Positions 35,106 through 41,210 of a stretch of 41,210 nt of DNA are shown here, piece by piece; position 1 is the first letter of the stretch, and every line of letters starts with the position of its first letter. The stretch lies in assembly GCA_009886125.1 (NCBI GenBank), contig VFJK01000093.1, positions 1 to 41,210 of the forward strand. The letters are read 5' to 3'. Both the position numbers and the translations under genes were made by a program. The DNA comes from Geobacter sp. (GTDB lineage: Bacteria; Desulfobacterota; Desulfuromonadia; Geobacterales; DSM-12255). The notes under the pieces were generated by a model. It was given only the letters and a program-made list of their open reading frames with translations, was not told the DNA's origin and searched no databases.

Positions 35106-36701
35106 TTATTTTTTAGGCACCATCGCATCTTCCAGTATCTTCACGCCGTCTTTTCCCGCCTTGATCGCGCCGGTAAGCGTCTCTCGCGCGAGGTCGGGAT
35201 TATGGAACCCGTCAGAATTCTCGGCAGTCCAGAACTCCCAAAGCACATGAGCTTCTTCATGCTTCTCACGAGCCTTGGCAAGGGTCTCTTCCGGGACACC
35301 GGCTCTTTTTGCAGTTGCATAGGTGTCAATCAGCTTTCCTATCCAGTATTCGGATTTGCGCATCTTGCCCTTGACATAATTCCGCACGCTTTCGATCTCG
35401 TACTTCTTGGCATCGACACTGTCCTGGGGGTGGCAGCCAAGACAGGACTCCTTGACAGTGTTAAGCGGCCTGGATACGTTGTGCGCCGAGTACATTTTGC
35501 CATCCTTCCCCTTCATCTTGGGCATATGACACTGATGACATTGAACACCTGCCTTGTCGTGAACACTGCCCGCATAGGCTTCTGCTTCAGGATGCTGCAT
35601 CTTGATGAGACGAGCACCGGTTACCGCATGTTTGAAGTCAAAAAAATCGAGCTTTTTGTAGTGAGCAAGGAGGTCTTTGGCGTTCTTCAGCGGGAAGTGG
35701 TTGGTGCGTTGATCGTCGTAATCGACCTTCTTGCCATCGCTCCACTGACTGCCTGAGTTGCAGTTGTACTCTACGTGACACTGGGCACACATCATGCGGG
35801 AATCTGTCTTTGCCATGACGCCTATCTTCCTGAACCCACGGAAATCTGTTACCTTCAGGTCGGTCTTGCCTCCCTTGGCAAAGATATTGTTTGCCGGATC
35901 ACGCTCAATCGCCTGTATCAGGGCATCACGCACAATACGCGGCTGTGTGCCGTGCGGATCGTGGCAATGCACGCAACCAACCGGATTATTGGTATCTTTT
36001 GCTACGTCATTTACGTTGGAGGTCCTGTCCCACTTGGCCTTCGGATCCTTGTCGCCGAGGAACTTCCACTTCAGCAGATGGTCTGAAGTCTTGCACTGGA
36101 TACAGGTGGGGTTACCGGCCATTGCGCTCTCCGGAATTTTCGTCTTTTCACCTTTATCTGCCAGGACGTCCCAGGTCTTGCCGGTGCGGTTCACATCCTT
36201 CCACCCGTTCTTGTACTGATAGCGCCCTCCTTGAAAACGATCGACGACAAACTGATCCGTGACCATGAATGCGTGTCCACGCGGCTCGTTATGTTCGAAG
36301 GTGAACCCATGTGGCGCCAGGAGTTTATCCTGCTGTGGCGAACGACCGGCAGGAACTCCCTTCTCTTTCCGAGACCCGCCTTCACTGCTTACCTTGTAGA
36401 AACTTTCATACTGATTCTTGTGACATTTACCGCAGAGTGCCTGATCGATGATCGTTACCGGCTTCACCTCACCCATACTCTCGACATGTTTTGCCAGATT
36501 GTCATGACAGGTACTGCAGGGAAGCTTTGCGTGCTTTGACGACTCCTTCATCGCCTTGATATCCTCATGACATTCATAGCAGGCTTCTTTCCCCTGAGCG
36601 GCTTTTACGGGTTTTGTCTTGGCTGCGGTCAATACTCCGGGCAGACTTAAAGCAATAACTACTCCACTAAATGCAACAGCTGAGAATACGGTCTTTTTCA
36701 T
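35106..36701 (-). CDS. Octaheme c-type nitrite reductase (ammonia-forming, TvNiR-like)
   Basis: 531 residues with a signal peptide (about 1-27). Eight heme sites are present: CXXCH at 41, 62, 90, 243, 305, 388 and 420, and a CXXCK site at C200-C203-K204. The lysine-ligated heme is the active site of the NrfA/octaheme nitrite reductase group. Three N-terminal hemes before the CXXCK heme mark the octaheme type. Y312 and C314 (CHVEYNC) match the Tyr-x-Cys pair that is covalently linked in the Thioalkalivibrio enzyme, and H370 in QHPE matches the catalytic histidine. R155 in VDRFQGG is my candidate for the catalytic arginine. The enzyme reduces nitrite to ammonium with six electrons in the periplasm. 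It is the last gene of the nap operon, 13 bases after the ferredoxin, with AGGAGAG before its ATG. Confidence 0.9.
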   Translation of the reverse strand: MKKTVFSAVAFSGVVIALSLPGVLTAAKTKPVKAAQGKEACYECHEDIKAMKESSKHAKLPCSTCHDNLAKHVESMGEVKPVTIIDQALCGKCHKNQYESFYKVSSEGGSRKEKGVPAGRSPQQDKLLAPHGFTFEHNEPRGHAFMVTDQFVVDRFQGGRYQYKNGWKDVNRTGKTWDVLADKGEKTKIPESAMAGNPTCIQCKTSDHLLKWKFLGDKDPKAKWDRTSNVNDVAKDTNNPVGCVHCHDPHGTQPRIVRDALIQAIERDPANNIFAKGGKTDLKVTDFRGFRKIGVMAKTDSRMMCAQCHVEYNCNSGSQWSDGKKVDYDDQRTNHFPLKNAKDLLAHYKKLDFFDFKHAVTGARLIKMQHPEAEAYAGSVHDKAGVQCHQCHMPKMKGKDGKMYSAHNVSRPLNTVKESCLGCHPQDSVDAKKYEIESVRNYVKGKMRKSEYWIGKLIDTYATAKRAGVPEETLAKAREKHEEAHVLWEFWTAENSDGFHNPDLARETLTGAIKAGKDGVKILEDAMVPKK

Positions 36702-36714
36702 GCATCTCTCCTTT

Positions 36715-37056
36715 CTAGTTTTTGTTTGACTCTGCTCCAGTCGGTTTCATCTCTATTACTCCGGGGGTTATCGGGCAGACAGCGGCGCATTCACCACAGC
36801 CGTCACACAGCTCATTATCTATGGTTATGCCTCTTCCCTGAGAAATATTCACTGCAGCTTGCGGACAGTGGTCGATGCAGGTGAAACAGCCGCCCTTCTG
36901 AGCCAGACAGCGGCTGTTGTCAAGCACTAGATAGCTGTAACTCTCTCCACAGGCCTCTGCATCTGTTTCAAACGACCTGACCTTGAGAGAATCAAACAGA
37001 TCCTGTCCGAACGTGAAAATACCCCGACAAATAAACTCCTTACGGCTTATCCTCAT
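36715..37056 (-). CDS. NapF-like ferredoxin with two 4Fe-4S clusters
   Basis: 113 residues. The C-terminal half holds two cluster-binding motifs: C50-x6-C57-x2-C60-x3-C64-P and the regular C84-x2-C87-x2-C90-x3-C94-P. Extra cysteines occur at 10 and 36. The N-terminus reads RISRKEFICRGIFTFG, which resembles a twin-arginine region with RK in place of RR but lacks a following hydrophobic stretch; it is probably cytoplasmic, as NapF is. NapF-like proteins are thought to assist NapA maturation or feed electrons. The start overlaps the stop of the diheme cytochrome gene (ATGA), and the octaheme gene follows 13 bases later, so it belongs firmly to this operon. Confidence 0.8.
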   Translation of the reverse strand: MRISRKEFICRGIFTFGQDLFDSLKVRSFETDAEACGESYSYLVLDNSRCLAQKGGCFTCIDHCPQAAVNISQGRGITIDNELCDGCGECAAVCPITPGVIEMKPTGAESNKN

Positions 37057-37376
37057 TTAATCTCTTTCTGTTTCTTTTTCTTTTTACCAGTTGCATTTTT
37101 CGTCTCTTTTATCTCACCCTGACCGTGGCACTGAACGCAATCGATCCTTACGGCATGAGGAGAAATCGGGGCTCCGTTCTTCCCCTCAAGGTGACATGCA
37201 AGACATGCGTCACCAGTTGCTCCCGGCTCCATCCTGTGCGGCACCATCGGGGGATTACCTTCTGCATAGGCCGCATCTTTCTCAAAAGCTTCATCATCGG
37301 CAGCGGTAGCAAGCACAGGGGCAAGCAGTAAGACTGACAAAGCGGCAGCGGTTAAAGCGGGTAAATATCGTTTCAT
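37053..37376 (-). CDS. napB: Small diheme cytochrome c, NapB-like
   Basis: 107 residues from ATG 37376 (GGAGGG 4 bases upstream); a TTG at 37388 is less likely. A signal peptide (about 1-26) ends in an ATAADD-like site. Two heme motifs, C58-LAC-H62 and C80-VQC-H84, are preceded by H47 in NPPMVPHRM and H74 in PISPHAV, which are placed like the distal histidines of NapB. NapB passes electrons to NapA in the periplasm. The protein is shorter than usual and ends in a lysine-rich tail (KKKKKQKEIK). It follows napA by about 100 bases and overlaps the ferredoxin gene. The symbol is given by motif and position, not by full-length similarity. Confidence 0.78.
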   Translation of the reverse strand: MKRYLPALTAAALSVLLLAPVLATAADDEAFEKDAAYAEGNPPMVPHRMEPGATGDACLACHLEGKNGAPISPHAVRIDCVQCHGQGEIKETKNATGKKKKKQKEIK

Positions 37377-37475
37377 CGAACCCTCCAAACTACGTTGTTA
37401 AAATCATCAATTAAAAATGAATCCATCTTTAATGCCTTTACCCGGCAGACATCAATACCTCCGTGCTGATTTGGC

Positions 37476-39788
37476 TCACGCTCTCTCAAGCTTGACAGCA
37501 CATTTTTTGTAATCCGGCTCTCCTGATATCGGACAGTAGGCGTCAATGCAGAGCTCGTTAATCAGCTTGTTCTCGTCAAAAAAAGCGACAAAGACATTTC
37601 CCTTTTCAGCTTTACCTCGTCCGCGCAGATCCGCAGTCAGAACGATGGAGCCCCTTCTGGAGGAAAGCTTGACCTTACTGCCCTGCTTTATCCCTAACCT
37701 CTTGGCATCTTCCGGATGCAGCTCGCAGACCGCTGCACCATACGCACGCCTAAGCTCCGGAACGCGCCCGGTCATGGTCCCTGTGTGCCAATGTTCCAGT
37801 ACCCGACCGGTGCAGAGCCAGAACGGATACTTCTTGTCCGGTGATTCAGCTGCCGGCTCGTATGGCCTTGCCCAGATAACTGCCTTGCCGTCATCTTTCT
37901 TGTTCTTATAGAACTTGATCCCTTCACCTGCCTTGACATACGGATCATATCCTTCGGCATAACGATAAAGAGTCTCCTTACCGTTCACCACAGGCCAACG
38001 CAATCCCCGCGACTTGGTGTAATCTTCATAGGGCGCCAGATCCTTTCCCTGACCGGCATTGAAAAGCCGATACTCCTCCCACATCTCCTTTTCCACGTAT
38101 TCGTATGGAAACAAGTTGCCGTGTCCGAGAAGCCTTGCCAACTCGATGGTCTGCCAAAGGTCATTTCTGGCCTCACCAGGGGGATCGACTTGCTTGAACC
38201 ACTGCTGGGTGCGGCGCTCGGCGTTGCCGAATACTCCTTCCTTCTCAACCCACGATGCAGAAGGGAGGATCACATCAGCCAGCTCTGTTGAACGTGTCGG
38301 ATAGATGTCGGAAACGATGACAAAGCGGCCATCACCCTTTCGGGCACCCTTTCGGTAGCGGTTCAGGTTCGGCAGCGACTGGAATGGATTGGTGACCTGC
38401 ACCCAGACAACCTTGATGTCTCCCCGATCCAGGGCACGGAACATCTCGGTAGCGTTGTAGGTCGGTTTTGCAGGAATTTTTTTCGGGTCGACGCCCCAGA
38501 TTTTAGCGGCCTTTTCCCGGTGCTCGGGGTTAGTAACCACCATATCAGCCGGCAGACGATGGGTAAATGTGCCGACTTCTCGTGTTGTTCCGCAGGCAGA
38601 AGGCTGTCCGGTCAATGACATCGGGTTTTCTCCCGGCTTGCATATCTTGCCGGTGAGCAGGTGAAGATTGTAGACGAGGTTATTTGCCCAGGTCCCGCGG
38701 ACATGCTGGTTGAAGCCCATTGTCCAGAGAGAGTTTACCTTTCTGTCCTTATCTGCATAGAGCTTGGCAACTGCTTCAATGGTCTGAACCGGAACTCCTG
38801 ACAGCTTTGAGACATATTCAGGCGTGTACAGCTTTAAAAATTCCTTGTACTCATCAAAGGTCTGCGGCTTCGGGTCATCAGTAAACGTGAACTTGTCCTC
38901 AAGGCCGTAACCGATAGAGGTCTTCCCTTTCTTGAATACAACATGCTTCTTGATGAAATTCTCGTCGTAGAGCTTGTCTCTAACTATTATATGGGCTATG
39001 CCGTTCATAAGCGCCAGATCGGTCTGTGGCACAAATTTGATGTACTGATCAGCCATTTGTGATGTACGTGTATGCCGTGTACCGAAATCGATTATCTTTA
39101 CGTTGGGATTTTTAAGGCGATTATCAATCAGGCGTGAGAAAAGTACCGGATGACACTCTGCCATATTTGCTCCCCAGAGAAAATATGTATCACCCTGGTC
39201 AAGGTCATCATAGCATCCCATGGGCTCGTCCGAAGCAAAGGTAGTCATAAATCCGGTTACTGCTGATGCCATGCAAAGCCTGGCGTTTGGCTCGATGTTA
39301 TTAGTGCCGATTCCACCCTTGAAGAGCTTGCTTGCAGCATATCCCTCAAATACCGTCCACTGCCCTGAACCATAAATAGCCACCGAATCAGGACCATATG
39401 TAGCAATTGCTTCCTTGAACTTACCGGCAATAAGGGTCATCGCCTCTTCCCACGAGGCCTCCACCATCTTGTCACCTTTACGTATCAAAGGCTTTGTAAG
39501 TCGGTCTTTTCCGTAGAGTATTTTAGAAAGGAAATAGCCTTTAATGCAGTTAAGTCCCTTGTTCACCGGCGACTGTGGATCACCCTTGGTGGCAACTATT
39601 TTTCCATCTCTTACTCCCACAAGAACTCCGCAGCCAGTTCCGCAGAAACGACAAGGTGCTTTCCCCCACTTAAGCCCGCTCGTATCCATTGCGGCTTCTG
39701 CTGAGCCGACAAACTTGCCGCCAGTCGCGGCTGCCAAAGCTGCCGCTGCTGCACTTGCCTTGATGAAATCGCGTCTGCTTACATCCAT
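37476..39788 (-). CDS. napA: Periplasmic nitrate reductase catalytic subunit NapA
   Basis: 770 residues from ATG 39788, chosen because AAGGAG is well placed and the twin-arginine signal (SRRDFIKASA) begins at residue 4; a longer frame from 39866 would bury it. The 4Fe-4S cluster ligands are C46, C49, C53 and C81 (CRFCGTGC, then NCIKG with K83, the conserved electron-transfer lysine). C172 in NARLCMASAV is the molybdenum ligand. Further molybdopterin-binding segments include LWGANMAECHPVLFSRL, GFNQHVRGTW and TGQPSACGTTREVG near 400-420, and LCTGRVLEHWHTGTMT near 660-680. It reduces nitrate to nitrite in the periplasm. NapD is encoded 16 bases upstream and the cytochrome downstream. The closest relatives may be bacterial Nap or monomeric types; the operon supports Nap. 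Confidence 0.94.
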   Translation of the reverse strand: MDVSRRDFIKASAAAAALAAATGGKFVGSAEAAMDTSGLKWGKAPCRFCGTGCGVLVGVRDGKIVATKGDPQSPVNKGLNCIKGYFLSKILYGKDRLTKPLIRKGDKMVEASWEEAMTLIAGKFKEAIATYGPDSVAIYGSGQWTVFEGYAASKLFKGGIGTNNIEPNARLCMASAVTGFMTTFASDEPMGCYDDLDQGDTYFLWGANMAECHPVLFSRLIDNRLKNPNVKIIDFGTRHTRTSQMADQYIKFVPQTDLALMNGIAHIIVRDKLYDENFIKKHVVFKKGKTSIGYGLEDKFTFTDDPKPQTFDEYKEFLKLYTPEYVSKLSGVPVQTIEAVAKLYADKDRKVNSLWTMGFNQHVRGTWANNLVYNLHLLTGKICKPGENPMSLTGQPSACGTTREVGTFTHRLPADMVVTNPEHREKAAKIWGVDPKKIPAKPTYNATEMFRALDRGDIKVVWVQVTNPFQSLPNLNRYRKGARKGDGRFVIVSDIYPTRSTELADVILPSASWVEKEGVFGNAERRTQQWFKQVDPPGEARNDLWQTIELARLLGHGNLFPYEYVEKEMWEEYRLFNAGQGKDLAPYEDYTKSRGLRWPVVNGKETLYRYAEGYDPYVKAGEGIKFYKNKKDDGKAVIWARPYEPAAESPDKKYPFWLCTGRVLEHWHTGTMTGRVPELRRAYGAAVCELHPEDAKRLGIKQGSKVKLSSRRGSIVLTADLRGRGKAEKGNVFVAFFDENKLINELCIDAYCPISGEPDYKKCAVKLERA

Positions 39789-39804: not shown

Positions 39805-40053
39805 TTAAGTTTGGAGTTCCTGCAGGTCTTCAAAATTGTGGTAGGCAAGCCTGACATCAAGCACACCGTCAGTTTGCATCATTTCAGTTACCAGTGAAAC
39901 TTCCTCATCTACCGTATCTGTTTCCAGAACAGCTATTATAGAACCGTTATCAAGCAGGTGATGTATCTCGACCTGACCATATATCTTGAGACGGGACTCA
40001 ATTTCAGCTGTTCTTCCGACCTGACAACTTACGACGACGCTTGAAACCGGCAT
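39805..40053 (-). CDS. napD: NapD, chaperone for NapA maturation
   Basis: 82 residues, the typical size. NapD folds as a ferredoxin-like domain, binds the twin-arginine signal of NapA, and holds it until the molybdenum cofactor is inserted. The family's pattern is visible: PVSSVVVSCQVGRTAEIESRL at the start (the strand and loop that contact the signal peptide), QVEIHHLLDNGSIIAVLE in the middle and a VLDVRLAYHNFED end. It is the first gene of the operon and is preceded by a 233-base gap with the FNR-like site. GGGAGAGG lies 4 bases before the ATG. Confidence 0.9.
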   Translation of the reverse strand: MPVSSVVVSCQVGRTAEIESRLKIYGQVEIHHLLDNGSIIAVLETDTVDEEVSLVTEMMQTDGVLDVRLAYHNFEDLQELQT

Positions 40054-40180: not shown

Positions 40181-40194
40181 TTGACTCAAGTCAA
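40181..40194 (-). promoter_or_regulatory. FNR/CRP-family binding-site-like palindrome upstream of the nap operon
   Basis: TTGACTCAAGTCAA has the 5-4-5 form TTGAC-N4-GTCAA, one base per arm away from the FNR consensus (TTGAT-N4-ATCAA). It also resembles sites of other FNR-family nitrosative and anaerobic regulators such as HcpR. Its centre is about 134 bases before the napD start. A TAAATT at the right distance downstream would fit a -10 box for activation from about -41.5. It lies after the DUF4337 terminator, so it can only serve napD. Confidence 0.55.
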
Positions 40195-40983: not shown

Positions 40984-41210
40984 TTAGAGTGCACCGTGGC
41001 AGTCTATACATTTGTTAGGATCATTCCAGTTTGCCAGGTTCCAGGTAACTGTTCTGCCATTGTGGCAGGCTATGTTGGTACAGTTGCTGGCCATCGGTGT
41101 GCTTGGGTGCCACATGGTTGCGGTATCGAGTGCAACTTTGGCAGTATCGTAAGACAGTGTCGACATGTTTTTGTAGGATGTGCGCTTCCAAACACCGCTA
41201 TAGAAGTCGA
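40984..41210 (-). CDS. Multiheme c-type cytochrome with CX4CH motif, C-terminal part
   Basis: The frame is open to the end of the window, so the gene starts outside it; about 75 C-terminal residues are seen. They contain CTNIACH, a CX4CH heme motif, and 24 residues later a normal CIDCH, ending GAL. Paired CX4CH/CX2CH modules are characteristic of a domain described in Geobacter, found in large cytochromes of the cell surface or periplasm used for extracellular electron transfer. The total number of hemes cannot be known. The terminator at 40903-40940 follows the stop codon. Confidence 0.8.
   Translation of the reverse strand, partial: DFYSGVWKRTSYKNMSTLSYDTAKVALDTATMWHPSTPMASNCTNIACHNGRTVTWNLANWNDPNKCIDCHGAL

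Follow-up and report, generated by a model that had tools for sequence, protein, structure and literature searches.

The closest described systems are two octaheme cytochrome c nitrite reductases (ONR), TaNiR of Trichlorobacter ammonificans (PDB 8rv0, 8rvm and 8rxu) and TvNiR of the haloalkaliphile Thioalkalivibrio nitratireducens (PDB 2ot4 and others). T. ammonificans is described as having ONR and lacking pentaheme NrfA, with ONR and Nap together providing periplasmic nitrate ammonification (PMC11972089, PMC13390470, PMC12142623). Octaheme enzymes have heme sites in the order three CXXCH, one CXXCK and four CXXCH, and occur in a calcium-dependent form with Lys-x-Gln-His and a calcium-independent form with x-x-Arg-His (PMC10716430). 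A covalent Tyr-Cys link has been reported for TvNiR (PMC6209398) and is counted in a review among the differences between octaheme and pentaheme enzymes (PMC12285233). Octaheme nitrite reductases have already been described in the Geobacterales, namely GsNiR of Geobacter sulfurreducens and NrfA-3 of T. lovleyi (PMC5433712, PMC11972089). The enzyme class, its occurrence in Geobacter relatives, the Tyr-Cys link and the Nap-ONR module are all already published.

We analysed a 41,210-nucleotide stretch of Geobacterales DNA, referred to in full as the window, which carries a gene of this kind at the end of a nap cluster. Our main reading, with a probability of about 0.96, is that the product of this gene is a periplasmic cytochrome c nitrite reductase of the octaheme TaNiR/TvNiR family and acts as the terminal enzyme of a nitrate-to-ammonium Nap-ONR module. 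This reading rests on heme motifs and residue equivalences, on phylogeny and fold, and on the order of the genes. Nitrite-to-ammonium activity, calcium binding, hexamer assembly and physiological role would follow those of characterised relatives. The features of the locus are as follows.

35106-36701, minus strand: octaheme ammonia-forming cytochrome c nitrite reductase of ONR/TaNiR type, 531 aa, ATG start codon; called from its eight heme motifs, identity to TaNiR and model fold
35760-35768, minus strand: codons of Y312 (TAC, 35766-35768) and C314 (TGC, 35760-35762), equivalents of TvNiR Tyr303 and Cys305
36090-36104, minus strand: CIQCK active-site motif of the fourth heme, C200-K204, placed from the position of C200 and the ORF coordinates; K204 corresponds to TvNiR Lys188
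36715-37056, minus strand: ferredoxin-like protein with 4Fe-4S motifs, 113 aa; Fer4 domains and a weak NapF match, kept beside ONR in relatives
37053-37376, minus strand: small diheme c-type cytochrome, NapB-like; PF03892 at 20.6 bits, below the cut-off of 25.1, with CLACH and CVQCH motifs
37476-39788, minus strand: NapA, periplasmic nitrate reductase catalytic subunit with Tat signal; NCBIfam NapA 1091 bits against a cut-off of 904, ATG at 39788
39805-40053, minus strand: NapD-like maturation chaperone, 82 aa; NapD model E 9.6e-8, below the curated cut-off
40181-40194, no strand assigned: perfect dyad TTGACTCAAGTCAA, candidate Fnr/Crp-type operator, about 130 bp upstream of the napD-like gene

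Translation of the ONR open reading frame gave eight heme motifs in the octaheme order rather than the five sites of a pentaheme enzyme. CXXCH motifs start at C41, C62, C90, C243, C305, C388 and C420, and the CXXCK motif follows the first three, confirming an earlier sequence-only reading of this DNA that had placed three N-terminal hemes ahead of a CXXCK fourth. Heme attachment accounts for 16 of the 17 cysteines, leaving C314 as the sole remaining one. The N-terminus is likely a signal peptide. The protein is assigned to Pfam PF02335, the family it has in common with NrfA, and scored 135.6 bits with the NCBIfam NrfA equivalogs, for which the cut-off is 595. The sequence-only reading had expected simple annotation pipelines to call the protein NrfA or c552. 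This proved only half right: the NCBIfam NrfA score is far below cut-off, so only the Pfam-level label 'Cytochrome c552' would mislead.

The window ONR is 69.6% identical to TaNiR over 490 aligned residues and, like it, has eight heme motifs, the sequence CAQCHVEYNC, the same fold and a place downstream of nap genes. Identity to TvNiR is 50.3%, and the N-terminal triheme part of the window protein aligns end to end with both enzymes. An AlphaFold2 model, built without hemes from an input of 33 locus-derived homologues, had a mean pLDDT of 87.8 and a pTM of 0.87. Superposition, which had been proposed as a check, placed the model on TaNiR (8rv0) with Z 52.3 and an rmsd of 1.7 A over 493 residues and on the TvNiR entries with Z about 46.8. 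Against pentaheme NrfA, Z was about 30 over about 370 residues. The model thus has the fold of the solved octaheme nitrite reductases.

Phylogeny gave the same assignment. In a tree of 128 sequences, including the window protein, TaNiR and TvNiR, a branch with full support held all octaheme proteins on one side. When the tree was restricted to columns common to both classes and occupied in 85% or more of the rows, the octaheme/pentaheme split retained 100/100 support. In both trees the window ONR was inside the octaheme side and outside the pentaheme clade. In the larger tree it lay in the Geobacterales branch, whereas TvNiR comes from a haloalkaliphile. A 45-row set starred in the tree holds both the window ONR and TaNiR, and the nearest rows to the window protein were from a Geobacter sp. 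MnB_3 MAG and a Geobacteraceae MAG. The suggestion of an octaheme reductase in a metal-reducer lineage was thus borne out in its first part by identity, fold and tree position, and is reasonable in its second because the lineage is Geobacterales and the nearest named relative is the MnB_3 MAG. The octaheme assignment is not new in this order, as the structure of an enzyme about 70% identical to this one has been published.

We also checked the Tyr-x-Cys pair and the active site. The motif CHVEYNC covers ONR residues 308-314, with Y312 and C314 two residues apart as the sequence-only reading had it. Its match to Tyr303-Cys305 of TvNiR also stood: in an alignment of the window protein, TaNiR (8rv0) and TvNiR (2zo5) these residues correspond to Y312 and C314 free of gaps, so that C314 is not displaced from the active-site tyrosine. 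Locally, CAQCHVEYNC is identical in all three proteins. In the same alignment TvNiR Arg131, Lys188 and His361 correspond to R155, K204 and H370, so the Arg, Lys, Tyr and His of the ONR active site are all kept, the His lying between the sixth and seventh heme sites. Lys358, Gln360 and His361 correspond to K367, Q369 and H370 in the run K367-M-Q369-H370. The TvNiR residues named here (Arg131, Lys188, Tyr303, His361, Lys358 and Gln360) are those taken here to form its active site. With Lys-x-Gln-His at this position, the window ONR active site is predicted to be of the calcium-dependent type. By transfer from TvNiR, Y312 and C314 may be joined by a thioether bond with a comparable effect.

To place the pair in the wider family, we surveyed 159 distinct proteins, comprising 109 octaheme (counting the window protein) and 50 pentaheme sequences. 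They came from a genome-collection scan with patterns that did not call for the Tyr or Cys, from Pfam-model matches in relatives and from profile matches across the phylum. Y-x-C was found at the site in 109 of 109 octaheme proteins against one of 50 pentaheme proteins, a count that is not representative of all bacteria since the octaheme sample is mostly Geobacterales and the wider phylum. The pair was also unchanged across a 34-sequence alignment with identity down to 41%. A chance origin of Y312-x-C314 was rejected, because all octaheme homologues have the pair and it is invariant in that alignment; the protein's other Y-x-C (Y42-x-C44) sits in the first heme motif. The Tyr-Cys pair is a fixed feature of the family, of which the window enzyme is an ordinary member.

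Pentaheme NrfA resembles the window ONR in its catalytic core, with a CXXCK heme, Tyr, His and Arg, and in belonging to PF02335. It differs in having five hemes, in its side of the tree and, in 49 of 50 proteins, in the residue at Tyr +2, which is Ile, Val or Phe instead of Cys. The sequence-only claim that pentaheme NrfA lacks the Cys therefore held for these 49 and failed for the CXXCH-clade NrfA of locus L171, which has CXXCH replacing CXXCK at the active site, and for its congener L192. The L171 protein has the motif CAQCHVEYYC, its Cys being the sole non-heme Cys, and L192, at 89% identity, also has CHVEYYC. The related pentaheme proteins L173, L193 and L194 do not have Y-Y-C at this site. 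The L171 gene (L171:861-2297, minus strand) adjoins a tetraheme NrfH-like ORF. In the literature searched, at the level of titles and abstracts, no Tyr-Cys link in pentaheme NrfA is described, and the Y-Y-C of L171 and L192 may represent an independent origin of the cross-link. Y-x-C is close to exclusive to octaheme enzymes, but not entirely so.

The gene order around onr was then compared with that of related loci. On one strand the window carries napD, napA, the diheme cytochrome gene, the ferredoxin gene and onr, with onr last. The ferredoxin gene is directly upstream, ending 13 bp before the onr start, and its own start overlaps the stop of the diheme cytochrome gene by 4 bp. Upstream of the cluster, the dyad TTGACTCAAGTCAA matched once in the window against 0.23 expected and was present in 23 of 100 shuffles; it could conceivably be an Fnr/Crp-type operator. 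An Rfam scan of the region gave no match, and promoter and terminator scans gave no excess over shuffles. At the window edge (40984-41208, minus strand) lies an open-ended ORF with two motifs, the heme motif CIDCH and CTNIACH, a longer heme-like one; it probably encodes the C-terminal end of a further multiheme cytochrome.

As in the Nap-TaNiR module of T. ammonificans, nap is directly upstream of onr. By contrast, the NapG/NapH quinol dehydrogenase genes of that module are missing from the window cluster, where the gap between napA and the diheme cytochrome gene is only about 100 bp (37377-37475). Locus L081, with an ONR that the tree makes the sister of TaNiR, reads napD-napA-napG-napH-cytochrome-ferredoxin-onr, with napG and napH in this gap. 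Counting loci with enough flank rather than species, and with some loci of two collections being the same contig, napG and napH occupy the gap in 14 related loci, all with the full set (napD undetected in two), and three loci have the full set without napGH, namely the window, L066 and L072. In a further 16 the ferredoxin gene is the only one of these next to onr, and in 51 none of the genes searched for is present there. The window cluster is an abridged version of the Nap-TaNiR module for ammonification known from the literature.

A search of the window's genome found no NapG or NapH above the curated cut-off and one NapC/NrfH-type domain match outside the window. On contig C109 of the same genome (G000; L195:1423-2976, minus strand) we observed a 517-aa polyferredoxin with a NapH-like membrane N-terminal part and a NapG-like C-terminal part. 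From its sequence, this NapH-NapG-like fusion is a candidate alternative quinol dehydrogenase. We tentatively propose, at rather less than even odds, that the window holds a compact Nap-ONR variant of five genes, running from napD and napA through the diheme cytochrome and ferredoxin genes to onr, without NapGH; it would then have to take its electrons from another quinol-oxidising protein, such as this fusion.

Other readings of the ONR gene were weighed against these results. The protein might be a pentaheme NrfA that independently gained three N-terminal heme motifs, its Y-x-C being coincidental, as the breadth of PF02335 and the one pentaheme lineage with Y-x-C would allow. However, the octaheme set falls on one side of the branch in 100% of bootstrap trees from common columns and the N-terminal triheme part matches TaNiR and TvNiR throughout; this account is already refuted and deserves almost no credence. 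Pentaheme NrfA identity was rejected by heme count and tree, and the phylogeny proposed by the sequence-only reading showed no clustering inside pentaheme NrfA. It is quite improbable that Y312 and C314, conserved as they are, stay unlinked in the window protein under the organism's growth conditions. The data on the bond considered here come from TvNiR, but the pair is invariant in the octaheme homologues (109/109) and its surroundings do not differ between TvNiR, TaNiR and the window.

Another possibility is an octaheme enzyme that shares this fold but whose main task is detoxifying nitrite, NO or hydroxylamine, or reducing sulfite, rather than respiratory ammonification. Hydroxylamine, sulfite and hydrogen peroxide are further substrates of TvNiR (PMC5433712), and most related loci with enough flank are without nap beside ONR (51 with none of the genes, 16 with ferredoxin only). 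In the window, by contrast, onr is directly downstream of the napA cluster, an arrangement shared with T. ammonificans, for which ammonification is proven; it also encodes the only NrfA/ONR in the genome. We consider such a role unlikely here and retain the reading of a terminal ammonifying enzyme.

As a Nap-ONR module, the cluster would work in two steps. NapA would reduce nitrate to nitrite in the periplasm, and ONR would add six electrons to convert the nitrite to ammonium at heme 4, bound by Lys204, with R155, Y312 and H370 predicted to line the substrate pocket and the seven bis-His hemes expected to carry electrons. By homology, the module would have the same nitrate ammonification role as the Nap-ONR of T. 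ammonificans.

Two points remain of interest: the absence of napGH from this cluster and the occurrence of Y-x-C in one pentaheme lineage. Because Y-x-C tracks octaheme enzymes almost perfectly, it is helpful in annotating them, and the pentaheme exception means that it should be paired with heme count. The window ONR is the one NrfA/ONR-type protein over the family cut-off in a genome that is 99.74% complete, and the genome search at that completeness found no pentaheme NrfA, whereas T. lovleyi also has two. The genome thus apparently relies on the octaheme enzyme alone for ammonia-forming nitrite reduction. Surveys based only on nrfA would therefore miss its ammonification potential, a blind spot to which the literature has already pointed for T. 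ammonificans and its relatives.
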